A stretch of 64,000 nt of DNA from an uncultured Flavobacteriales bacterium (GCA_938085105.1 CALKGK010000047.1:1-64000); one strand, 5' to 3'; positions 41,280-55,690 are shown, counted from the stretch's first letter. The notes: generated by a model not told the origin, from the sequence alone. Program-made: numbers and translations.

Positions 41280-41311
41280 AGCCCTGAAGAATCTCGCTTC
41301 GGGGCTTTTTT
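41280..41311 (+). terminator. Terminator of carA-eno
   Basis: AGCCCTGAAG (41280-41289) and CTTCGGGGCT (41297-41306) form a 10-bp stem with one wobble and a 7-nt loop, followed by TTTTT. It sits between eno and the convergent M1 peptidase gene. Confidence 0.85.
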
Positions 41312-43694
41312 ATTTTTTGATGAAGGGAAAAGTGCTCTTACCCAGTTGAATAAAATAGGCACCAGGATTTAAGTGTTGAACCGATATCCGGCCTTCCGTG
41401 TGTCCAGAAAATACAAGTTCCCCCAAGGCGTTTAAAACGCGGTATTCTTGAGCCTTGTTGAGCTGAAAAGAGATGTAGTCTTGGGTTGGGTTTGGGTAGG
41501 GCAATAATTCTGGTTCGGAGAGAGGCTCCATTCCAACATAGTCTGAGTTAATTCCCCAAGCGTAGTCTCCTGGCGCACTGAGCGGAAACTCAATTTGGCC
41601 TTGATAATTGGTGTTGTTCCCCTGAATTCCAAGTTCAAAAGGATGTACCTCCCATGTGTTTCCGTTGAGAGGACGAAAGAACAATTTAAGGCTGTCTTCA
41701 GGAATATTCAGATCATCCATTGCAGCAAAGAATTTTGGGTCGAAATAATTGCCTGCGGTGGGGTTTCCATAGTATCGAATGCGCGCAGTAGCTTCAAAAT
41801 CACCACCAAAGTCGCCCAGTACCCTCCAAAAACGGTCATTGGATAGGAATAGAGAAGGATCATCTTCCACTTCTGCAGTACTCCAGTGGTTTTCAACCCG
41901 CATCCATAGGGCTTCACTTCCTATGGTTTCCACATCCAAGCGAAGTTCTGCTCGGTCGAAATTGGTTATTCCATCATCGTTCACAAGAATTTCTTCAGAG
42001 AGTGATGCTTGTAAAATCCGCTCATCGTTTAAATAAACCCACTTTGCTTCAAAGGGCAGCTGAACCTCAATATTCGAATTTGGGTTATAAACAACCTGCT
42101 CGGAATAGCTCTCTCCATTCACTCCAATAATTTCTACAAATAAAGGAGTGCTCTCTGCGGAGTTAGGGTTGTAATGACTTTGTTGTGCAATGTTTATCGT
42201 AAGAAGGAGGTCGTTGCTATTTTCTACTTCTGAAGAACTCCAGTTACTCACGAAGAAGTCAGGGAATCCTTCCTGAAAGATAAATGCATCAAAGAAAGAT
42301 TGTACATTCTGTGGCGTGTAATTCTGGAAGTAATTCAGGATATCAATGCTACTTACATCGCTGAATTGATGGTCGTTCAGAAAATCTTTTGATGCAGAGA
42401 AATAGGCTTCATCTCCCATCAAGTTTCTCAAATTGTGCGCAATGGTCGCTCCTTTGTTGTAAACGTGGTCTCCATAGGTGAACGCATGCCCAATTCCAGA
42501 TACGGGCAAACGTTCTCCATCATTTCGATGAGCATAAAGTAGGACGTCCTTATGATTGTCAAGCACGCTTTCCCAGTATTCACTTTCACCATAGACCTCT
42601 TCCAAGAACAAACTTTCAGCGTAGGAAGCCATCCCTTCATTGATCCACATGTCTTCTTGGCTACTGCAGGTCACCAAATCTCCCCACCAATGATGCGCCA
42701 GCTCATGCGCCATCAAGGTTTCATAAGTCAAAGAACCATCGGCAAATGCAGCAGGGTAGGCAATGTTGGTGGCATGCTCCATCGCGCCAGAAGAAAAAGG
42801 TACCATCACGTATCCAACCCGGTTCCATAGATATGGACCGTAGTCTTCTTCAAAAGCTTCCAAGCAAGGAATGAGGTTGACGAAACTCGCTTGCACAGAA
42901 GAAGTATCTTGGGGCAATGCTGCCAGCCAAATGGGAACTTCTTCGCCGGAAATGCTCTGAAAAGCGTCTTCAGTATGGGTGTAATTCCCTACTGCTATTC
43001 CTACGAGATAGCTCGGGATTGGTGTTGAAATGGACCATCGATCAATTGTGCTGTCTCCACCCAAGAGGGTGCGCTCCATCAATTCACCACTGCAATAAGA
43101 ACGGTTCCCATTGTTGCTCAATACTTGAATATCGTAAGTGCTTCTTTCCAAAAAGTTATCAAAGCAAGGATACCAAGCCCGTCCAAAATTGTGAGGGTCT
43201 GCATCAAAACCAACCCCAAGATTAAAGGCTTGATTGTTCTGAAAATAAAACCCACCCCAACCGGAGGCATCCGTTTGTGCTTGTCCGGAATAATGCACGC
43301 TCAAAGTTCCTGTGTCACCGGGAGAAAGTGTTTGCGGAAGTTGGATCACCAATAAAGGAGAAGAATAATCAAAATCCAAAGGTTCTTCGTCCATAAAGAC
43401 CTCTGAAATTTCCATCCCAAGAAGGTCCAGAGAAAGGTGATTGACCTCTTCCAAAAGTGCGGTAAAACTCACTTCGCACACTCCGCTAATTTGAAATGCA
43501 TTCATTTGAGTGAAGTCCAAATCGAGCGAAAAATGTTGGATGTCGATCGAGTCACTCCTTGACTGATCTGCTTTCGAGAGCCCCATCCATTGGGCCTTTT
43601 TTAGAAGGTGAGAACATCTTTGATTTTGCGAGAAAACCGAAGATGTAGCGGCAAGGATGAATGCAATGGATAAAAGAAAAACCGTTCTGAGCAT
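41310..43694 (-). CDS. Secreted M1-family metallopeptidase with T9SS type A sorting domain
   Basis: 794 residues. Signal peptide 1-22 (ending SVFSQ). An N-terminal beta domain leads into the gluzincin domain with HELAH at 330-334 and the third zinc ligand Glu353 in NEGMASYAE. The substrate-binding GxMEN motif reads GAMEH (303-307). The last 75 residues start with PYPNPTQDYISFQL and end with GAYFIQLGKSTFPFIKK, a type A C-terminal domain that directs export through the T9SS. It is therefore an extracellular or cell-surface aminopeptidase, probably for feeding on peptides. Confidence 0.88.
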   Translation of the reverse strand: MLRTVFLLSIAFILAATSSVFSQNQRCSHLLKKAQWMGLSKADQSRSDSIDIQHFSLDLDFTQMNAFQISGVCEVSFTALLEEVNHLSLDLLGMEISEVFMDEEPLDFDYSSPLLVIQLPQTLSPGDTGTLSVHYSGQAQTDASGWGGFYFQNNQAFNLGVGFDADPHNFGRAWYPCFDNFLERSTYDIQVLSNNGNRSYCSGELMERTLLGGDSTIDRWSISTPIPSYLVGIAVGNYTHTEDAFQSISGEEVPIWLAALPQDTSSVQASFVNLIPCLEAFEEDYGPYLWNRVGYVMVPFSSGAMEHATNIAYPAAFADGSLTYETLMAHELAHHWWGDLVTCSSQEDMWINEGMASYAESLFLEEVYGESEYWESVLDNHKDVLLYAHRNDGERLPVSGIGHAFTYGDHVYNKGATIAHNLRNLMGDEAYFSASKDFLNDHQFSDVSSIDILNYFQNYTPQNVQSFFDAFIFQEGFPDFFVSNWSSSEVENSNDLLLTINIAQQSHYNPNSAESTPLFVEIIGVNGESYSEQVVYNPNSNIEVQLPFEAKWVYLNDERILQASLSEEILVNDDGITNFDRAELRLDVETIGSEALWMRVENHWSTAEVEDDPSLFLSNDRFWRVLGDFGGDFEATARIRYYGNPTAGNYFDPKFFAAMDDLNIPEDSLKLFFRPLNGNTWEVHPFELGIQGNNTNYQGQIEFPLSAPGDYAWGINSDYVGMEPLSEPELLPYPNPTQDYISFQLNKAQEYRVLNALGELVFSGHTEGRISVQHLNPGAYFIQLGKSTFPFIKK

Positions 43695-45497: not shown

Positions 45498-45528
45498 AAG
45501 GGCTGATCTCGTTAAGAAATCAGCCCTT
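45498..45528. terminator. Bidirectional terminator between convergent genes
   Basis: AAGGGCTGAT (45498-45507) and ATCAGCCCTT (45519-45528) form a perfect 10-bp stem with an 11-nt loop, with A-rich sequence on the left. It ends both the helical-protein gene and the PorE-like operon. Confidence 0.8.
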
Positions 45529-45550: not shown

Positions 45551-47590
45551 CTATTGTACCACTTGGAACTCTGTTCTTCTATTGGCTGCGTGCTCAGCTT
45601 CTGAACATTCTACACCTGTTTTGCATCTGTTGAGCAATCTTCGCTTCCCATAGCCCTTGCTGACGAGCATGCTTCGTTTTACTCCTTTCGCAACCAGGTA
45701 CTTCACTACTTCATTTGCTCTTTTCTCTGAAAGTACATCATTAAATGCGTTAGAACCACGAGAATCACAGTGAGAGCTGATCTCAATGCGCAACTCTGGG
45801 TTGTCTTTCAAGAGTTTAACAACGTAGTTCAAATAAGGCTCAGCATCTGAACGGATGTCCCAACGGTTGTAGTCCCAATTGATGTTCGGAATTTCATAAG
45901 GTTTGTTTACATTGATGCCATCGGCATTTCCATTTCCATCATTGCTACCATTATTGTTGTTCCCATTGTTATTATCTGAACCATCTTGGTTTCCAGAACC
46001 GTCTCCATTGCCGTTTTGGTTACCATCGTTGTTGCCGTTTCCACTTCCATTGTCGGTTACGTCATAGTCATCATTGGAAAGGGGAAGCAGCGCAAAGTTC
46101 TGCTCCATGGTCTTATTCGACTGAATGTTTTTTGTGTTGAAATCTTCAATGGTGGAGAAATAACCTTCTTTTTCAACCTTAACCTCATAGTCTTTTCCCG
46201 TGAGCAAAGGCATTTCGAACATTCCTACTTCATCGCTTTTAATGATTTCTTCTGTCCCATCTGTTTTGTTAATGATGGTGATGGTAGCGTCAGATAAAGG
46301 ATTGGCACTTCCCTTTTTCGTAACCACCCCGTTCATAACCACAGTGGGTTCGAAGATGATGAAGGAGTACAATTGATCTTTACCAGAACGGTCGCTCGAT
46401 AAATATCCACTTTGTCCGTCTTTGAAAATCATTCCAAAATCGTCGCGTGCAGTATTTAATGGGTAGGCGAGGTGTTCTGGCGTAGACCAAGATCCATTGC
46501 GCTGAGCACTGAATAGAAGATCTAATCCACCCAATGTCTGTTGAGCATCGGAAGAGAAGTAGAGGCTATCGGCCGACTTCAAATTTGGAAATACTTCGTC
46601 TCCTTTGCTGTTGATCATTGCTCCGAGGTTCATCGGTGTACCCCATTCTCCGCTTTCGATTTTTTCCACCTTCCAAAGGTCCATTCCACCAAAACCACCG
46701 GCTTTATTGGAAGAGAAGTAAAGCGTGTTTCCGTCTGGACTGATGTTCGGGTGCGCAAACATGTAATTCGGATCGTTGATGCTCATGGATTCGGGCACAG
46801 ACCATGTTCCATCTTCCATTTTTTCGCTCACGTACAACTGAGTCGTACTTTCTTCGGCAGAATTGGCGTCGAGAACGTTCTTACGTTTATAGTTGCTGCG
46901 AGTTAGAATCATGGTGTTACCATCAGCGCTAACAGTTGCTATCCCATCATGGAATTTCTGGTTGATGCCCTCAATCTGTTCTGCTGAAGCAAAATCACTA
47001 CCACTTCCAGGTGCATAGAACAAGTCGGTATAATTAAGCCCTGTATAAGCGTCTTTCGGACCAGCATTGGATCGTTCACCAGTAAACAATAGACCTTCTT
47101 TGAAGATCACAGGTGCATATGCAATTTCAGTTCCTCCAATATTTAATGGGGCAACTTCATAGAGGCTAGAATCCTGCTTGTATTCTTGGATTTTATTGCA
47201 AGAAGACTTGAGCATTTGTGCCATTTCATTGGATGGGTCTCGAGACAAGATGCCAGAGAAGATGTTCTCTGCATCATCATAACGCTCGCTAGCCATCAAT
47301 GCTTTTCCATGCGCGATTCGATCGTCGTCAGTAAGCACAACACTTAAAGCAAGAAGCTCATACTGCTCTGCTGCCAAATCAAATTGGTTTGTTTGAGCAT
47401 AGGCATCGGCCAAGCTTCTTCTTCCTTCTGGACTATCTTTTTTATCCAGTCCCTTTTCTAGTAGAGAAATGGCATCATCCATTTCATAGTTCTGGTAAGA
47501 CGAAATCCCTTCCTTGATGTTCAATGAGGCACAAGAAGCCAAAACCAGTGCGGATAAACCTAGGGCAATGTGTTTGAATTGAGTGGTCAT
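45551..47590 (-). CDS. PorE-like OmpA-family lipoprotein (TPR, PD40 propeller, regulatory-like domain, OmpA)
   Basis: 679 residues. The lipoprotein signal ends LVLASC, with Cys20 as the lipidation site. Domains in order: TPR-like helices (about 25-130), PD40/WD40-like propeller (about 140-400, for example NISPDGNTLYFSSNKAGGFGG), a carboxypeptidase-regulatory-like beta domain (about 420-500), a Asn/Gly/Asp-rich linker (about 514-558) and an OmpA peptidoglycan-binding domain (559-679) with SSHCDSRGSNAFND and ANRRTEF. This is the architecture of PorE, which links the T9SS outer-membrane complex to peptidoglycan. It is 3 bp after the PorP/SprF gene and in one operon with the adhesin, so it probably anchors that complex. 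Confidence 0.88.
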   Translation of the reverse strand: MTTQFKHIALGLSALVLASCASLNIKEGISSYQNYEMDDAISLLEKGLDKKDSPEGRRSLADAYAQTNQFDLAAEQYELLALSVVLTDDDRIAHGKALMASERYDDAENIFSGILSRDPSNEMAQMLKSSCNKIQEYKQDSSLYEVAPLNIGGTEIAYAPVIFKEGLLFTGERSNAGPKDAYTGLNYTDLFYAPGSGSDFASAEQIEGINQKFHDGIATVSADGNTMILTRSNYKRKNVLDANSAEESTTQLYVSEKMEDGTWSVPESMSINDPNYMFAHPNISPDGNTLYFSSNKAGGFGGMDLWKVEKIESGEWGTPMNLGAMINSKGDEVFPNLKSADSLYFSSDAQQTLGGLDLLFSAQRNGSWSTPEHLAYPLNTARDDFGMIFKDGQSGYLSSDRSGKDQLYSFIIFEPTVVMNGVVTKKGSANPLSDATITIINKTDGTEEIIKSDEVGMFEMPLLTGKDYEVKVEKEGYFSTIEDFNTKNIQSNKTMEQNFALLPLSNDDYDVTDNGSGNGNNDGNQNGNGDGSGNQDGSDNNNGNNNNGSNDGNGNADGINVNKPYEIPNINWDYNRWDIRSDAEPYLNYVVKLLKDNPELRIEISSHCDSRGSNAFNDVLSEKRANEVVKYLVAKGVKRSMLVSKGYGKRRLLNRCKTGVECSEAEHAANRRTEFQVVQ
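45917..46051 (-). repeat. Low-complexity Asn/Gly/Asp linker-coding repeat
   Basis: Degenerate repeats of AAY, GGW and GAY codons encode a run of about 45 residues with alternating GNGN, DGNQ and NNNN units between the beta domain and the OmpA domain of the PorE-like protein. Such tracts can change length by slippage. Confidence 0.8.
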
Positions 47591-47593
47591 AGT

Positions 47594-48517
47594 TTAGAAG
47601 TATCGTGGTGATCTGGTTTTAATAGATATGTCTTTGCCAAAGTCAAAGCCAAGCATGATTTCGTGACTCCCTGCTGAATAGTCTTGAATGTCAGTAAGCG
47701 TGTAGTCGTAAGCGTATCCAATTCGCAACTGGGGAGAAATGTTGTACTCAATCATTCCAATCATGGCGTCTTGAGTTCGGTAACCCAAGCCTAACCACAG
47801 TCTTTCATATAGAAGAAAGTTAGCGTTCAAATCCAACTCGATTGGAGCTCCGGGTAAAAATTTCACCAAGGTAGACGGTTTAAAAGCGAGCGCAGGACCA
47901 AGGTCAATCACACCACCCACATTCAAGTAATAGTGCTGGGTGAAATAGTTGTCTTGGTTGCTTATCTCTGGGAGGATGTTGTCGTCCAAAGAATAAATCA
48001 CCGGAATCGAAATCCCCGCGTAAAATTTATCCGTGTGGTAATAAGTACCGAAACCAAATTTCGTCACCATCTCGTTCTGAATGTTGTTGGGGCTGTAGAC
48101 CGCATCTTGATTGTCCCAAATGGTCACATCACCCAAGTCGGCACTATACATTGCGAGGCCAGCTTTAACACCGAAAGAGAGATCTCCACGACCCAAAGGC
48201 AGGTGGTAGGCAAAGTTCGCGGCAACATCCAATTGTGAACTGATACCGATTTGGTCGTTCGTTACTACCAATCCAACACCCATTCGCTTGTTGGCAATCG
48301 GACCGTCAATGGCAAAAACTTGTGTGCTTGGCGCGCCATCAAGATTCACCCATTGAGATCGGTGCAAAAGAGATGCACTGAAATAATCATGTGTTCCGGC
48401 ATAGGCAGGATTCAATAACATGCCGTTGAACATGTATTGGCTCACCTGCAACTCTTGCTGGGCGATACTCACCCCTCCGGTACACAAGAGAACAAAAAGG
48501 AATATATATTTTTTCAT
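47594..48517 (-). CDS. PorP/SprF-family T9SS outer-membrane protein
   Basis: 307 residues, signal peptide 1-19 (ending GVSIAQ). The start of the mature protein, QELQVSQYMFNGMLLNPAYAGT, is the family signature, and RMGVGLVVTNDQIG and the C-terminal HEIMLGFDFGK strand fit an outer-membrane barrel. In Flavobacterium johnsoniae SprF is needed for secretion or attachment of SprB, whose gene precedes it. Here too it lies directly after a SprB-like adhesin (21-bp gap), so it is probably that adhesin's dedicated partner. Confidence 0.92.
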   Translation of the reverse strand: MKKYIFLFVLLCTGGVSIAQQELQVSQYMFNGMLLNPAYAGTHDYFSASLLHRSQWVNLDGAPSTQVFAIDGPIANKRMGVGLVVTNDQIGISSQLDVAANFAYHLPLGRGDLSFGVKAGLAMYSADLGDVTIWDNQDAVYSPNNIQNEMVTKFGFGTYYHTDKFYAGISIPVIYSLDDNILPEISNQDNYFTQHYYLNVGGVIDLGPALAFKPSTLVKFLPGAPIELDLNANFLLYERLWLGLGYRTQDAMIGMIEYNISPQLRIGYAYDYTLTDIQDYSAGSHEIMLGFDFGKDISIKTRSPRYF

Positions 48518-48538
48518 GATCGTATATTCAAATGTGAA

Positions 48539-51500
48539 TTATCTTCTTAAGTCAACATAAGTAGCAAACTCTCTATCACCTGCCGTAAAGACAACGAAAT
48601 AGGTTCCATCTGGCAAGTCCTCGCCGTCCGTGTTTGTACCTGTCCACTCATTATTGTAATTGTTCTTTTCGTAAACGATGTTCCCCCAACGGTTGAACAC
48701 TACGAAAGTGTTGCTTGGGTACTCAGAGATACCAAGTATCACGTAAGCGTCGTTCGCTCCATCGTTGTTTGGAGAAAGCCCTGTAGGCAAGGCCAAGTCA
48801 TCCGGCTGTGTCAGCACAATCGTGCTGTCTTTCATACATCCATTGGCATCCGTGATGCTGATCACATAAGAACCAGCAGCTAAACCGCCCGGTTGTTCTT
48901 CTCCATCTTCAATCAAGGTAGGACCCGTCCAAAAAATGTCATACTCTGGAGTTCCACCGCTGATGTTGGTTTCAATCGATCCATTGTTTCCTTCAAAGCT
49001 CGAAACGTTAAATCCATTGGAGTACAGCGGACTATTTCCGAAGATGCTAATGCTGTCTGGCTCAATGATGCTGTAGCTTTCCGTAATCTCACATCCAAGC
49101 TCATCAATTATCGTTACCGAGAAATTTCCTTCACATATTCCATCAAGATCTTCTTCAGTACTTACTTCTTCACCGTCTGAGTTCGTCCAAACAAAGCTCA
49201 CGTCCCCGTTTGCATTGCTGATGCTCAAGTCGATGCTTCCGTTACAATCTCCGTAGCATAAGGGCTGAACAAGCTCAGCATCTGCTGTTAAAGCCTGGGT
49301 TCCTTCAACGGTTTCTTCCAAGATCAATTCACATCCATTGGCGTCTGTGATGCTCGCGGTATAGAGTCCTTCGCAAAGTTCGTCTGCGCTAGTAGCATCG
49401 TCGTCAATGCTTGTTGGACCTGTCCATACCACTGAGAATGGGGCATCAATAGCCGTGATGTCCAGGTCAATTGTACCATCACATAAACCGCAGCTTGCAG
49501 GAGTAGAATCGATGTCTGCTTCAATGGTCGTAGGTTCAGCAATCGTGAAGCACTCATCAATAATACATCCGTTGGAATCTTCAATGTTCACACAATACTC
49601 TCCCGCAGTGAGGTCTGAAATGCTTGATACATTACCGAAGTCAGGTGTCCAAGTATAAGTGTAATCTCCGGTTCCTCCGCTAGTGTTGAGGGTGATGCTG
49701 CCTAAAGTAGCACCATCACAAGAAATGTTGTTCACTTCAGCATTTGGGGTGATCGGGTCTGGACCACTGATCACGAATACTTCTTCAACAACGCAATCCA
49801 CGTCATCGGTGATTTCGAGGTTAACGATGTCACCAGCACAAAGACCGATGAGTGTTTCACCACCTCCAACAGGGTTGCCATTTACCGTCCATGCAATGGT
49901 GTAATCAGCCACTCCTCCAGAAGGGGCAATGGTGATGCTTCCGTCACATGCTTCAGGACAAGAGGTGTTGAATCCGTTGAAGTCAGATAACACTGCGTTG
50001 GACATGATTTGAGTTGGCTGTTGAATGTCAAATTGAAGCAAGGTGTCGCAACCATTCGCATCACTCACAAGAACTTCATAGAATCCTTGGCAGAGTTCAA
50101 TTTGATCTTCTAATGTGCTCAAAGTATCTCCGAGGTTATCCAATTCCCAAAGGAAGGTGTAAGGACCAACTCCACCTGAAACTGAAAGGTCAATACTTCC
50201 ATCACAAGCACCAAAACAAGAGATTTCTTCTCCACTCGGATACAGGGAAACGATAGCACTTACTTCCAGTGCTTCATCAGGTTCGGTAATTTCTCCTTGA
50301 GCACTTGCCTCACATCCATCTTGGTCAGTAACGGTGATGGTATAGATGCCTGCGCTGAGTTGGCTTTGATTCAATTCGCTTGGGTTTTCGATTCCTGCAC
50401 CCGTCCAAAGAATGTCATAATCAGGCACACCTCCTTGTATTTCTGCAAATATGGCACCGGTCGAATCACCAGCACATGGGATCACAAAATCGCTGTTATT
50501 GAGAATAGGAATGGTCAGGTTTACAGCAAAGGTGTCCGGCTCAAAGACGATCACACTTTCTTCCAGCGTGCAATTGTTTGAGTCCGTCAATACAAGATCA
50601 TATAAACCTCCTGGGATACCAGCAAGCACATTTCCTGCATACTCTCCTTCGTTCCAATCAAAGGTGTAGCTCCCAGTTCCACCAGTAGCAGTAACCGCAA
50701 TGGCTCCATCGCTTTCGTCGTAACAGCTCACCGGGGTGATGCTATCAACAGTAAGGTCAAGTTCTTCTGGTTCTTCAAGCTCGAATAAGATGATGTTTTC
50801 ACAGTCTTGTTGATCAACAACGCGGAGCTCATAGCTTCCAGGGCAAAGGTTGAAGAGGGTATCGGCAGTAGCTTCATTGTCTCCAATATCTCCAGAGATC
50901 CACTGGTAAAGCACGTAGTTTCCATTTCCACCCGTGATGTTAGGAGAGATCCACCCATCACAAGCTCCAGTACAGCTAATTTCAAATCCATTGTAGTCGC
51001 TCACAGCGCCAGAGCTTTCAATGGGCTCCGGTTCTTCGAGGTCAATCTCGGTGGTAGCAACACATCCATTGATATCGGTAACCACAACACAGTAACTTCC
51101 CGCAGGCAAGTCGTTCTGTTGTGAAACTCCCGGGATGTTTACAGGATCGCAACTGGTCCAGTCGTAGTCATAGCATTCTGGAGCAAAGGTGGTACAATCA
51201 GGTGTTCCTCCTTCAATACTCACAGAAATGGCACCGTCATTGGCTCCGTTACAAGAAACGTTGAAATCGCCACCAAAATCAGAGATGGAAACAAAAATGT
51301 CCATGACTTGAGGTGCGTCCAAAAAGAGGCTGTCGGTCACTGAACATCCGTCTTCATCCGTTACCTCAACGACATAAGTACATTCAAAGAGGTTTGAAAT
51401 GCTGGTTCCAACAGTTTCAGGGAAGAAGCACTCTGGCTGAGCCTCCCACACTGCTGTAAGGACTCCATTTCCACCACTCAGTCCAATTTCAATGGATCCA

Positions 51501-54430
51501 TTGTTTTGTCCGAAACAAACTGGTGGAACTACCACGTCAAAATCAATGTCAATCGGTGTAGGCTCTCCCACAACATAAACGAATTGCTCTTCGCAGCTTC
51601 CTGAAACAACGGTCAAGATGTAGCTTCCAGCGCAAAGGTCTTCGATGTTTTGATCACTTGAAGTAAATCCATCAGGCCCCGTCCAAGCAAAACTATCTGC
51701 CGGTGTTCCTGCAACAATTACTTCGATGCTACCGTCACATGTTCCTCCACAAGAGGCGTCGGTTATGGTTTCATTTACGATGAATTGATCGTTTTCACCA
51801 ATATTGATGGTCAGGTCAGTTGTACATCCTCTAGAATCTGTAATAGTGAGCTCATAATCTCCAGAATTCAAGCCGGTAAGATTAGGTCCACTGCAAGGGC
51901 AGCTTGGCCCCGAGGCCCAACTGAAGATATAGGGGCCACCATGCGCTCCTCCTGGAGTAACAGAAATTTCACCCAAGCCAGCATTCGGGTCTCCACAAGG
52001 ATTTGGGACGGTGCTCACTTGAATGTCCCAAGCAGGAACGCAGCTAATTTCTACTTCGCCGCTAACAGAACAACCATTGTCGTCGTTCACGGTGTATTCG
52101 TAAGTCCCACAAGGAAGTCCTGACAAATCTTCAAGTCCAATGTAAGTGGTTCCGCTTTGATCATGAATCCAAGTTGCCAAATAAGGAGGGGTTCCGCCAG
52201 TAATGCTGATGTCGATAGTTCCATCTTCAGCATCCGGACAACTTACACCAAATCCTCCAGGGTAAGAAGAGACATTGTCAACACTCACAGCTAAAGGTGC
52301 CGCAGGTTCGTTGATGGTGATGGTTACCGATTGGGCAGAACTACATCCGTTCACGTCAGTCACTGTAACGGTGAAATCTCCAGCCGGCAAAGATGTTGCA
52401 AGCGGAGAGGTAAGGTTGGGATCGTGACTCCAGCTGTAGGTGTAAAAAGGACATCCTCCAGTAGTAGTTACGGTGATTACTCCCGTTTCTTCTCCAGTAC
52501 AAAGAACATCAGTTGTGCCGTCCACTTGAATCTCCAATACTTCTGGTTCTTCTAAGGTATAGCTCGCAGTAATTTCGCATCCGATGTCATCCACAACAGT
52601 AACGTCATAAACTCCTGCACATAGGTCTTCAAAAATTGGATTATCTCCAATAAGGGCAACTCCATTCACGGTCGTGGTGTAAGGCGCAATTCCACCAACA
52701 AGATTTAATTCAATGCTTCCGTCACAAGCACCGTTACAAGAGATTGGAAAACAAGTGTAGTCACTAAAGTTGACGTCACTAATGCTGAGCAGGTTGACTT
52801 CAACTACGTCGATACATTCGGTTGACGAACAGCCAAGCGCGTCTGTTATCGTTACACAGTATTCTCCCGTTGGAACATCGGTCAAATCTTCATCGTTACT
52901 GAAAAAGACACCATCCAATGTCCATTCAAAAGTGAAGGGAGCTGTAGCGTCGGTGATGGTAATATCAATTGCCCCATTGTTTCCTTCTTGGCAAGTCACT
53001 CCATCAACATCAAAGGCGATGCTTGGATTGGTAACAGTGATGGTGCTTGTGGCACTTACTGTACACGAGGCCAAGGTACTGGTCAAAGTGTAAGTTGTGG
53101 TGGTGGTTGGACAAGCTTCAGGCGTGAGGCTGTTCGGGTCGCTCAAACCATCTGTCGGACTCCAAGAGAAGGCGGCATCTCCTTCGCTTTCTGCTTCACC
53201 CAAAAGTTGAACACAGTTTCCCGTGCAAACGGTTGCTGTTGCAGGGGTTAGAGCGACAAATAATTCTTCTTCGATTTCGAAGTCAACAGAGCTTTGGAAA
53301 TCGAGTCCGTCACAAAGCTGATCCACCAACTGTACTGAGACAAATTCAGTTCCTTCACCTAAACCGTCTCCAACAGTATTGATATCAAAACTAAAGCTGG
53401 TTTCTCCTGGAGGGATGGTGATGGTATAAATATCGTTCAGAGCATCGTAAAATGGCGTGAGGTCAGGGCTTGTAGTGTAATCAACACCAAGCTCCGCGTC
53501 TCCAGATAGGGTAAAGCTAACATTCAGGCCAGCGGCTTGCACAACACCACTTTCGAAGGTTACTGTACCGTCGTTACAGCCTTCAATCATATAATCCGTT
53601 CCACCAGCAGTGCTTGTGAGAACAGCAATTGGGTTGGATTCAATTTTAGAAACAAACACGGCACTATCATACAAACGGTCGGAACCATCAGCAATGATCA
53701 GTTCAAGAGTATAGGTTTCACAAGGGATGACATTTCCTACTTTCGCTTGCAAATCAACGGTGAAGCCATCGTATTGGATTCCTTGTCCGAGGGGGTTCTG
53801 GTTGTCGTAAAAGTAAGTGGCGTTATCAATGTTGTTTACGTTGTTGATCGCTACGGGCTGGGATGTTCCTGGGATCAAAGCGATGTTTACCTGTGATCCA
53901 ATTCCAGGGCCGGTAATAAAAAATCCAAAAACATCGTTGAAAGGAGAACCTACCCATTCCAAGTATTCTTCACTGGCAAAAACGAAGTCAAACTTCAAAC
54001 TATCGCCTTGAGGAACAATGTCGAATTGCAATTTACAAGCATCCCAGGTGGTTAAGCCTCCATTGGCAGTGGTTAACGTTGGGCTTCCCGGAAAGAAGTT
54101 GTCATAAAGGTTGCAGTTCAAACAGTCGGAACCGTTCAAATCGGGTAAACCTGTTTCGTCGTTAGGACCAACAGCGTTCCAGGCTCTACCTGTAGTAAGA
54201 AGTACCCCTTCACTCGTCCCAATTTCGGTATTGTTCGAAGTGTAATAGGCGTAGCTTGAATCTGCTGCGGTGAGCTGAGCATTGAAGATCTCAACCCCAT
54301 CACCCACCAAATTCTGAGCGATTTCATCTGGGGTGAGGGTGTAGTCCAATGTCAATTGAGCTTTTGAAATTCCAGCTGATAGGATCAAGCATAGAACCAA
54401 AAGAATGCGATATGATGTCAGTGACCTCAT
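48539..54430 (-). CDS. Giant SprB-like surface adhesin with T9SS type B (CHU_C) sorting domain
   Basis: 1963 residues from the ATG at 54430; an upstream in-frame start at 54496 would precede the signal peptide and overlap the previous gene. Signal peptide 1-25 (ending GISKAQ). Next come a choice-of-anchor-L-type domain (about 30-265; VFASEEYLEWVGSPFNDVFG), a Calx-beta-like domain (about 290-390), a PKD-like segment, then about 17 SprB-like repeats of 75-95 residues, each with an early Cys before a CDGSI-type motif and a late Cys in DxNGC. The C-terminus LSPNNDGANDAYVI to GTYFVVFTAGDREF is a type B sorting domain. It is probably a motility or attachment adhesin moved along the cell surface. 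Confidence 0.92.
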   Translation of the reverse strand: MRSLTSYRILLVLCLILSAGISKAQLTLDYTLTPDEIAQNLVGDGVEIFNAQLTAADSSYAYYTSNNTEIGTSEGVLLTTGRAWNAVGPNDETGLPDLNGSDCLNCNLYDNFFPGSPTLTTANGGLTTWDACKLQFDIVPQGDSLKFDFVFASEEYLEWVGSPFNDVFGFFITGPGIGSQVNIALIPGTSQPVAINNVNNIDNATYFYDNQNPLGQGIQYDGFTVDLQAKVGNVIPCETYTLELIIADGSDRLYDSAVFVSKIESNPIAVLTSTAGGTDYMIEGCNDGTVTFESGVVQAAGLNVSFTLSGDAELGVDYTTSPDLTPFYDALNDIYTITIPPGETSFSFDINTVGDGLGEGTEFVSVQLVDQLCDGLDFQSSVDFEIEEELFVALTPATATVCTGNCVQLLGEAESEGDAAFSWSPTDGLSDPNSLTPEACPTTTTTYTLTSTLASCTVSATSTITVTNPSIAFDVDGVTCQEGNNGAIDITITDATAPFTFEWTLDGVFFSNDEDLTDVPTGEYCVTITDALGCSSTECIDVVEVNLLSISDVNFSDYTCFPISCNGACDGSIELNLVGGIAPYTTTVNGVALIGDNPIFEDLCAGVYDVTVVDDIGCEITASYTLEEPEVLEIQVDGTTDVLCTGEETGVITVTTTGGCPFYTYSWSHDPNLTSPLATSLPAGDFTVTVTDVNGCSSAQSVTITINEPAAPLAVSVDNVSSYPGGFGVSCPDAEDGTIDISITGGTPPYLATWIHDQSGTTYIGLEDLSGLPCGTYEYTVNDDNGCSVSGEVEISCVPAWDIQVSTVPNPCGDPNAGLGEISVTPGGAHGGPYIFSWASGPSCPCSGPNLTGLNSGDYELTITDSRGCTTDLTINIGENDQFIVNETITDASCGGTCDGSIEVIVAGTPADSFAWTGPDGFTSSDQNIEDLCAGSYILTVVSGSCEEQFVYVVGEPTPIDIDFDVVVPPVCFGQNNGSIEIGLSGGNGVLTAVWEAQPECFFPETVGTSISNLFECTYVVEVTDEDGCSVTDSLFLDAPQVMDIFVSISDFGGDFNVSCNGANDGAISVSIEGGTPDCTTFAPECYDYDWTSCDPVNIPGVSQQNDLPAGSYCVVVTDINGCVATTEIDLEEPEPIESSGAVSDYNGFEISCTGACDGWISPNITGGNGNYVLYQWISGDIGDNEATADTLFNLCPGSYELRVVDQQDCENIILFELEEPEELDLTVDSITPVSCYDESDGAIAVTATGGTGSYTFDWNEGEYAGNVLAGIPGGLYDLVLTDSNNCTLEESVIVFEPDTFAVNLTIPILNNSDFVIPCAGDSTGAIFAEIQGGVPDYDILWTGAGIENPSELNQSQLSAGIYTITVTDQDGCEASAQGEITEPDEALEVSAIVSLYPSGEEISCFGACDGSIDLSVSGGVGPYTFLWELDNLGDTLSTLEDQIELCQGFYEVLVSDANGCDTLLQFDIQQPTQIMSNAVLSDFNGFNTSCPEACDGSITIAPSGGVADYTIAWTVNGNPVGGGETLIGLCAGDIVNLEITDDVDCVVEEVFVISGPDPITPNAEVNNISCDGATLGSITLNTSGGTGDYTYTWTPDFGNVSSISDLTAGEYCVNIEDSNGCIIDECFTIAEPTTIEADIDSTPASCGLCDGTIDLDITAIDAPFSVVWTGPTSIDDDATSADELCEGLYTASITDANGCELILEETVEGTQALTADAELVQPLCYGDCNGSIDLSISNANGDVSFVWTNSDGEEVSTEEDLDGICEGNFSVTIIDELGCEITESYSIIEPDSISIFGNSPLYSNGFNVSSFEGNNGSIETNISGGTPEYDIFWTGPTLIEDGEEQPGGLAAGSYVISITDANGCMKDSTIVLTQPDDLALPTGLSPNNDGANDAYVILGISEYPSNTFVVFNRWGNIVYEKNNYNNEWTGTNTDGEDLPDGTYFVVFTAGDREFATYVDLRR

Positions 54431-54461
54431 AAGTGTTATTTTGAAAAAGTTTGGGTGCGAA

Positions 54462-54857
54462 TTAGTTTGATCCGTTTCTAAATGCTTTGCAAGCATCTAA
54501 AAAGGCGTCGGCATTATAATTAGGAAGATAATTGCTATTGCTCTTTCCTGTTTTTTCTACAATCAAAACTTTGATGTTTTCGAGCGAGGTATCAAAACTC
54601 TGATCGATTCCATCAGCCAAGGTGAACTCCATCAGTCCAACAGGAACACACGCCTGAGTTAGGTCGAAACTGCTTTCTAGTCTGCATGCTTTAACAAGTG
54701 CAGCGTAGTCATCGGTGCTCAGACCGTCCAAGTTCATGTAAACTTTACTTGGGGAGTTGGCTTCTTGGGCTTGACCGCTCAATTGTAAGCCCGTAAGGGC
54801 GAAGAAAAGCATGAAAAAACCGAACCAAGAGAGGGAGCGTTTAGTTGATGTTTGCAT
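54462..54857 (-). CDS. Small secreted protein of unknown function
   Basis: 131 residues from the ATG at 54857 (an ATG three codons earlier also exists). Signal peptide about 1-30 (SWFGFFMLFFALTG, ending GQAQ). The mature part has three Cys (ALVKACRLE, LTQACVPVG, FLDACKAF) and no recognisable domain. It is 31 bp before the adhesin start and on the same strand, so it probably leads the operon. A CATCTTTG box, one mismatch from -7 consensus, lies 35 bp upstream of its start (54893-54900). Confidence 0.7.
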   Translation of the reverse strand: MQTSTKRSLSWFGFFMLFFALTGLQLSGQAQEANSPSKVYMNLDGLSTDDYAALVKACRLESSFDLTQACVPVGLMEFTLADGIDQSFDTSLENIKVLIVEKTGKSNSNYLPNYNADAFLDACKAFRNGSN

Positions 54858-54949: not shown

Positions 54950-55690
54950 TTATCCACGGATTAAGCCCTGCCGTTCAACTTCGTACATGGCAATTGCTCC
55001 ACTCGCTGCAACGTTGAGGCTCTGAACACTTCCAGACATAGGGATTCGGACCAACTCGTCAGCCTTCGTTAGACTTGCTCTTGATAAGCCCGTTTCTTCG
55101 TTTCCAAGTACCACGCAAACTGCTCCGTTGAGAGAGGTTTCATGGATGAGTTGTTGCGCTTTCTCCGTGCAAGCAACTACTTTTATTCCATAACTCTGAA
55201 GGTATTCGATGCTTTGCCCAACGTGATCTGTTCTGCAAACAGGTAAACGCAAGAGGGCGCCTGAGCTACTTTTTATGGCATCTGCGTTAATGGGAGCCAT
55301 TCCTTTGGTAGGAATCACTACGGTGTGAAATCCCAGGCACTCCGCACTTCTCACAACAGCTCCAAAATTCCGCACGTCAGTAATTCCGTCAAGCAAGAGT
55401 ATTTTTGGGGAGATGGCAGACTCGTACAACTTCCCCACAAATACATCAAGTACTTCAAAAGTGATGGGCGAGAGGAAGGCGATGACTCCTTGGTGGTTTT
55501 TCTTTGTGATCCGCGACAGCTTTTGCTCTGGAACGGCAGCACAGGGTATGCCAAGTTCCTTCGCTTCCCGAATGGCAGCAACGATTTCTGGGTTTTTTAA
55601 TCCTTTCAAGTAAAGGATGCGTTGGATTTCACGCTCCTTGTCGAGGGCTTCTCGCAAAGGGTGGTGACCAATGATGTAATCTTTTTCCAT
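54950..55690 (-). CDS. rlmB: 23S rRNA 2'-O-methyltransferase RlmB (TrmH/SpoU family)
   Basis: 246 residues. An N-terminal substrate-binding domain (IIGHHPLREAL, about 1-75) precedes the SPOUT knot. Motif 1 is DGITDVRNFGAVVRSA, motif 2 VLGNEETGLS and motif 3 IPMSGSVQSLNVAASGAI. It methylates G2251 (E. coli numbering) in the peptidyl-transferase region. It follows the GWxTD gene by 6 bp. Confidence 0.92.
   Translation of the reverse strand: MEKDYIIGHHPLREALDKEREIQRILYLKGLKNPEIVAAIREAKELGIPCAAVPEQKLSRITKKNHQGVIAFLSPITFEVLDVFVGKLYESAISPKILLLDGITDVRNFGAVVRSAECLGFHTVVIPTKGMAPINADAIKSSSGALLRLPVCRTDHVGQSIEYLQSYGIKVVACTEKAQQLIHETSLNGAVCVVLGNEETGLSRASLTKADELVRIPMSGSVQSLNVAASGAIAMYEVERQGLIRG

Follow-up and report, generated by a model that had tools for sequence, protein, structure and literature searches.

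A PorE-linked adhesin unit of the type IX secretion system in a marine uncultured Flavobacteriales bacterium, with a four-residue shuttle tail that may mark wall-anchored adhesins

A self-contained adhesin unit

The window analysed here is a stretch of 64,000 nucleotides (GCA_938085105.1, CALKGK010000047.1:1-64000) from a marine uncultured Flavobacteriales bacterium. Its minus strand carries, between positions 45551 and 54857, four genes that are likely to form a self-contained unit for a static adhesin of the type IX secretion system (T9SS), tethered to the cell wall by a dedicated PorE-like anchor that might dock onto the PRYF end of its outer-membrane shuttle. The idea of a dedicated anchor is already published (Gorasia et al. 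2022, PMC9143113; Paillat et al. 2025, PMC12618676), and the unit itself is an ordinary and widely conserved example of that arrangement. The part worth following up is the tail code, as a conserved four-residue shuttle tail may mark wall-anchored rather than moving adhesins. The unit and its borders comprise the following features.

54462..54857 (-), small exported protein, 131 residues: signal peptide and ferredoxin-like domain of ~95 residues, ATG at 54857
48539..54430 (-), type B T9SS cargo, 1963 residues: choice-of-anchor-L domain, 11 SprB-repeat stretches, C-terminal type B sorting domain
47594..48517 (-), PorP/SprF-family outer-membrane shuttle, 307 residues: profile matches, cysteine-free after the signal peptide
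47597..47608 (-), codons of the C-terminal tetrapeptide PRYF of the shuttle, the proposed PorE-docking tail
45551..47590 (-), PorE-like lipoprotein, 679 residues, lipobox LASC: TPR, propeller, CRD, linker and OmpA
45554..45895 (-), OmpA-like peptidoglycan-binding domain (residues 566-679) of the PorE-like protein
45498..45528 (-), intrinsic terminator 3' of the PorE-like gene: 13-pair stem, 5-nt loop, T-tract
54950..55690 (-), rlmB (23S rRNA methyltransferase), conserved upstream flank outside the unit

A preliminary description of this DNA had proposed a small secreted protein, a 1963-residue type B cargo, a PorP/SprF protein and a lipoprotein, encoded on one strand with gaps of 31, 21 and 3 bp. 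All four open reading frames were recovered at these positions on the minus strand, the gaps being counted from the starts at 54857 and 54430, and domain matches together with the lipobox confirmed the products. The cargo could also start at an ATG at 54496, which would give 1985 residues instead of 1963. It is assigned to type B by Pfam and NCBIfam matches to TIGR04131 (44.6 bits, cut-off 35) and CHU_C (80.4 bits). The shuttle matches PorP_SprF (PF11751, 282 bits, cut-off 22.3) and TIGR03519 (291 bits, cut-off 90.6), and a solved structure related to PorP, sought by sequence, was not found. Its tail ends in ...KTRSPRYF, and the CxC motif of gliding-type SprF is absent, as is any other cysteine after the signal peptide.

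The strong terminator, whose stem starts 22 bp past the stop of the PorE-like gene, has no comparable counterpart in the intergenic spaces of the unit. A scan for sigma-70 promoters returned fewer matches than expected by chance, with a sigma-70 model that is ill-suited to this phylum. Taken with the gaps of 3-31 bp and the conserved gene order, the single terminator at the 3' end suggests that the four genes may be read as one transcript.

The order rlmB, small gene, cargo, PorP and PorE is syntenic in many Flavobacteriales, and rlmB lies upstream in several relatives as it does in the window. Eighty named loci in GTDB genomes show cargo, PorP and PorE in this order, and where the flank is long enough the small gene accompanies them in about 18; nearly all belong to metagenome-assembled genomes of Flavobacteriales, the isolate Cryomorpha ignava being included. 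The cargo lies immediately 5' of PorP in 73/75 PorE-linked units, and the median gap between PorP and PorE is 8 bp. Terminator, cargo position, short gaps and synteny make this four-gene arrangement more than a chance association.

The putative anchor is a PorE paralog kept with its shuttle

The last protein of the unit matches TPR, PD40, CarboxypepD_reg and OmpA in Pfam and NCBIfam. An AlphaFold2 model built on a 39-row alignment (mean pLDDT 85.2) resolves a helical TPR region (residues 2-139), a beta-propeller (144-412), a CRD (417-501) and the C-terminal OmpA domain, with a disordered, low-complexity linker rich in Asn, Gly and Asp at 508-564. The best Foldseek match of this model in the PDB is 6top, the C-terminal domain of Porphyromonas gingivalis PorE, followed by TolB propellers and Pal domains. 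Within the OmpA domain, D609 and R624 are invariant in the 39 sequences and lie 15 residues apart, which is presumably the spacing of the known peptidoglycan-binding Asp/Arg pair. The protein nevertheless falls short of the curated cut-offs of the two PorE-type models in NCBIfam, with 348 of the 600 bits needed for PorE (NF052230) and 405 of the 620 needed for CHU_0125 (NF053607), and is thus a PorE paralog. The full PorE domain order that the preliminary description had read in this lipoprotein is therefore borne out by the domain matches, the model, the 6top match and the LASC lipobox, but the protein is not PorE itself.

The assembly that holds the window (3.17 Mb in 99 contigs, 99% complete) encodes 12 PorP/SprF proteins and 17 OmpA domains. 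Five PorP-PorE pairs were identified: the one in the window, one at C35:59.9-63.2 kb, two on contig C52, and one split over contigs C55 and C38, whose ends overlap by exactly 141 bp. The core PorP is a different protein from the shuttle of the window and lies directly upstream of gldK on contig C44, where it adjoins gldK, gldL, gldM and gldN; gldJ, porU and porV are on C33 and sprA on C82. The core PorE of the genome, its best PorE match (C35:1634-3652, 487-492 bits, also below the NF052230 cut-off of 600), has no PorP beside it, and further PorE-like paralogues unlinked to PorP were found on C14 and C2. Nearly all of 20 relatives likewise possess one clearly best-scoring PorE, and neither a PorP nor a cargo lies closer than 1.5 kb to any of these core copies. 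A sole PorE/PorP pair in the genome, a finding that the preliminary description had named as refuting a dedicated anchor, is ruled out by the five pairs and the separate core PorE and core PorP.

Among 90 PorE-like proteins in a phylogenetic tree, the 19 core rows are set apart by a fully supported branch. The protein of the window falls outside this core clade and is grouped with its syntenic orthologues, which establishes it as a paralog distinct from core PorE. Its tree and that of the adjacent PorP agree, as the preliminary description had anticipated for a dedicated anchor: patristic distances of PorP and PorE correlate over 69 pairs with a rho of 0.70, against a mean of 0.29 (sd 0.08) when partners are shuffled within genomes, and none of 2000 shuffles reached 0.70 (maximum 0.54). 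Between paralogues inside one genome the correlation rises to 0.86. Distances of PorP and of the cargo C-terminal domain (CTD) also exceed the shuffles, less strongly (0.36 vs 0.15). This agreement supports the view that PorP-PorE pairs have been kept together.

The five pairs beside a separate core set, the position of the paralog outside the core clade and the matching trees are best read as pointing to a dedicated anchor. The preliminary description had extended this idea to each large adhesin, and there it goes too far, because 7/12 PorPs of this genome have no PorE neighbour; roughly one adhesin unit in two shows the arrangement. An arrangement without PorE was observed at L030:8961-19208 with L030:8053-8964 and L031:7301-9225, where a 3415-residue type B cargo has its own PorP. 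It is preceded by another pair, made up of a small type B cargo and a second PorP, and this second PorP has a cysteine tail, ...CALGESRATHCAAYD.

The C-terminal tail of the shuttle follows its gene context

The tails of PorPs were compared with their gene context because of published work on the CxC tail of SprF (Liu et al.); this tail is disulfide-bonded to GldK and needed for movement (PMC12635249). The survey covered 173 PorPs from the genome of the window, from relatives and from elsewhere in the class, and the context was assigned by hand for L065, where PorE lies just beyond a short locus, and for L039, the pair at a contig junction. A strict P[RK][YF][FL]-COOH end was found in 59/75 PorE-linked PorPs vs 2/85 unlinked non-core ones (Fisher p 3e-26, uncorrected for relatedness), and P[RK] occurs inside the last six residues of 64/75 linked PorPs. 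Conversely, a cysteine within the last 15 residues was observed in 3/75 linked vs 50/85 unlinked PorPs. No shuttle combines both tail types, and a CxC tail occurs in none of the 75 linked shuttles. The contrast persists inside one family, f13, sampled in five genomes: all 17 linked members end in PRFF or PRYF and are cysteine-free vs 0/14 unlinked members, and CxC tails number 0/17 and 9/14, respectively. Among the core PorPs beside gldK, 6/11 carry the strict motif and four more a PR-X variant.

Conservation is confined to the very end of the protein. In 54 linked representatives (<60% identity, median ~31%), the entropy of the last four positions is 1.3-2.1 bits vs 2.9-3.6 bits for the preceding nine. 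The motif is also kept in 66/66 further linked loci, all of which belong to one orthologous lineage. Single-linkage clustering of the PorPs at 35% identity was uninformative, as the clusters collapse.

PorPs with tail cysteines (mostly ...C-x13-CPSF) were also observed directly 5' of gldJ in 13/13 gldJ-linked cases (L038:9754-10920 and 12 similar ones), with porU-porV as neighbours in those whose flank was read. These proteins are candidate track-bound shuttles.

Two further classes point, it is suggested, in the same way as a tail that selects the partner of the shuttle. In genome G056, two PorPs are fused via TSP3 repeats to OmpA within one open reading frame (573 and 600 residues; L227:4532-6253 and L228:4642-6444); both lie directly 3' of a type B cargo, and neither has a PorE or a PRYF end. 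These proteins have the appearance of a natural joining of shuttle and wall anchor, with a predicted direct link to the wall. In five genomes of the order, shuttles ending in PCAKF or PCPKF are preceded by a TPR-propeller protein of 516-528 residues devoid of OmpA, the gene order being cargo, OmpA-less PorE and PorP. These OmpA-less proteins form a clade of their own and are encoded at the following positions.

L087:5287-6855, OmpA-less PorE-like protein
L096:2488-4038, OmpA-less PorE-like protein
L104:4946-6514, OmpA-less PorE-like protein
L125:2540-4099, OmpA-less PorE-like protein
L150:5710-7296, OmpA-less PorE-like protein

An unusual PorP was also observed at L196:845-5428, where an open reading frame of 1527 residues 3' of a type B cargo has a PorP domain at residues 37-299 followed by ~1200 residues without a Pfam match.

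Proposed mechanism and alternatives

All products of the unit would be exported by Sec. The T9SS (SprA and GldKLMN, encoded elsewhere) would translocate the 1963-residue adhesin by means of its type B C-terminal domain, and the PorP/SprF shuttle would receive it from the translocon and hold it at the outer membrane. The PorE-like lipoprotein, a paralog kept with its shuttle and distinct from core PorE, would bind the periplasmic side of the shuttle, and its OmpA domain would bind peptidoglycan, so that the adhesin would be fixed to the wall and static. Docking is proposed to occur through the PRYF tetrapeptide, which would replace the cysteine tail that links SprF to the moving GldK track. The propeller might be the docking site, a guess by analogy with TolB.

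In its general form, the proposal makes the C-terminus of PorP/SprF proteins an address. An end of the P-R-aromatic-F/L type would dock a PorE wall anchor and keep the adhesin static, and a cysteine tail would bond the GldK track and make it mobile, the two being mutually exclusive; the wall could also be reached through a PorP-OmpA fusion, and the one-cysteine tail PCAKF or PCPKF would define a class co-encoded with an OmpA-less PorE-like protein. This address has roughly an equal chance of being right or wrong. The motif and its association with PorE were not found described in the literature searched, which is not the whole literature.

Several observations weigh against the proposed mechanism or its tail part. 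Sixteen of the 75 linked shuttles, including the one in the fifth PorP-PorE pair described above (KTFLP), are without the strict tail, and two unlinked PorPs (L091 and L230) carry it. On the PorP tree, context and tail cluster: some 12-14 changes are seen, and supported branches provide no more than 5-6 independent contrasts; across contrasts independent of the tree, the motif seldom differs and a sign test of tail against PorE cannot reach significance. A simple lipobox pattern was matched in just 11/71 linked PorE-like proteins, most of those outside the lineage of the window being without it. The agreement of the PorP and PorE trees is also expected from co-inheritance of adjacent genes without binding. 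Finally, the P. gingivalis PorP-PG1035 complex forms without PorE, which is thus unneeded for binding between these two proteins.

With so few independent contrasts, much of the association between tail and PorE may be due to common descent, and it is these contrasts and the 16/75 exceptions that leave the docking role of the tail so evenly poised. The PRYF end could instead serve insertion or stability in the outer membrane, its link with PorE being a by-product of descent; aromatic C-terminal residues are a known assembly signal of outer-membrane proteins in other phyla. This explanation, which competes with the tail part only and leaves the wall-anchored unit untouched, is a serious possibility, if somewhat the less probable one. 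Indeed, unlinked PorPs of the same barrel family manage without a PRYF-type end, the conservation stops at the last four residues while the preceding tail is variable, and the core PorP, in a different gene context, also ends in PR-aromatic; it is for this core type that binding to PorE has been demonstrated, in P. gingivalis.

A second alternative concerns the anchor itself. The PorE-like protein could be a general wall linker shared by several PorPs, the core PorP included, and its place in the operon could reflect co-expression only. Genomes do hold several PorE-like paralogues, some of them unlinked as on C14 and C2, and cross-talk between type B CTDs and shuttles is known in Flavobacterium johnsoniae (PMC12618676). 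Moreover, the putative docking tail is near-identical in all linked shuttles and in the core PorP, so the tail alone cannot confer partner specificity. A shared anchor is nevertheless unlikely, as PorE and PorP trees match pairwise well above the within-genome shuffles and core PorE forms a separate clade that is present in the relatives.

The SprB repeats of the cargo and the gldJ of the genome could be taken as signs of a mobile gliding adhesin of the SprB-SprF type, with the PorE-like protein as a track accessory, but this very improbable reading is rejected on shuttle tail and gene neighbourhood: SprF requires its CxC tail to move (PMC12635249), the shuttle of the window has no cysteine to offer and linked shuttles no CxC tail, and the PorE-linked Fjoh_3952 is static (PMC12618676).

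The choice between track and wall is a question in the surface biology of Bacteroidota that the proposed tail address would answer. Published work credits the pair of CTD and shuttle, and no particular part of the shuttle is named there as directing an adhesin to the wall. Should the tail hold this address, the fate of an adhesin would be predictable from four residues.

The small exported protein and a neighbouring gene

The first protein of the unit combines a signal peptide with two invariant cysteines (C70 and C123), and its confident structure model is ferredoxin-like. No credible family match was obtained in Pfam, and a fold search gave weak ferredoxin/HMA-like matches only (best E 0.006). 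A role as a metal chaperone is not claimed, as C70 and C123 do not form the CxxC of HMA domains. A single-sequence search detected this protein in 9/20 relatives, and nearly all matches adjoin the start of a cargo. This protein (window 54462-54857; L244-L252) evolves fast and is kept with this single adhesin unit.

Close to the four-gene unit, positions 41310-43694 of the window encode a peptidase of the M1 family that carries a type A sorting domain of the T9SS.

Comparison with known systems

The preliminary description had taken SprB-SprF of F. johnsoniae (PMC12635249) as its point of comparison. That system likewise combines an SprB-repeat cargo, a type B CTD and a shuttle encoded directly downstream. 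The comparison is nevertheless misleading, because SprB-SprF has no PorE neighbour and SprB moves on the track, with SprF bound to GldK, unlike the unit of the window. Cytophaga hutchinsonii CHU_0125 (PMC5891637; NF053607), the top NCBIfam model for the anchor, has TPR, PD40 and OmpA in common with it, but was studied as a Pal-like protein involved in outer-membrane integrity.

The same three kinds of proteins, with the same predicted topology and anchor domain order, are found in the PorE-PorP-PG1035 complex isolated from P. gingivalis by Gorasia et al. (PMC9143113), whose PorE provides the best match (6top) to the OmpA domain of the anchor. PorP and PorE are core T9SS components in that species, with PorP in a single copy, whereas the window encodes paralogs beside a separate core set. 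The same authors noted that six porP-like genes of F. johnsoniae have a porE-like gene as neighbour, unlike sprB-sprF, and postulated that type B proteins which do not move are anchored to the wall (PMC9143113). Paillat et al. counted five PorE-containing type B operons in F. johnsoniae; they found Fjoh_3952, encoded with the PorE homolog Fjoh_3950, to be static while SprB and Fjoh_4750 move, and likewise proposed that it is anchored to the wall (PMC12618676). The static Fjoh_3952-3951-3950 type is the proper match of the present unit. In this operon, as in the other PorE-containing type B operons, a type B adhesin, a PorP/SprF protein and a PorE homolog are likewise encoded together, and the unit of the window differs, in a comparison drawn from the published descriptions, by the conserved small exported protein that precedes its cargo.

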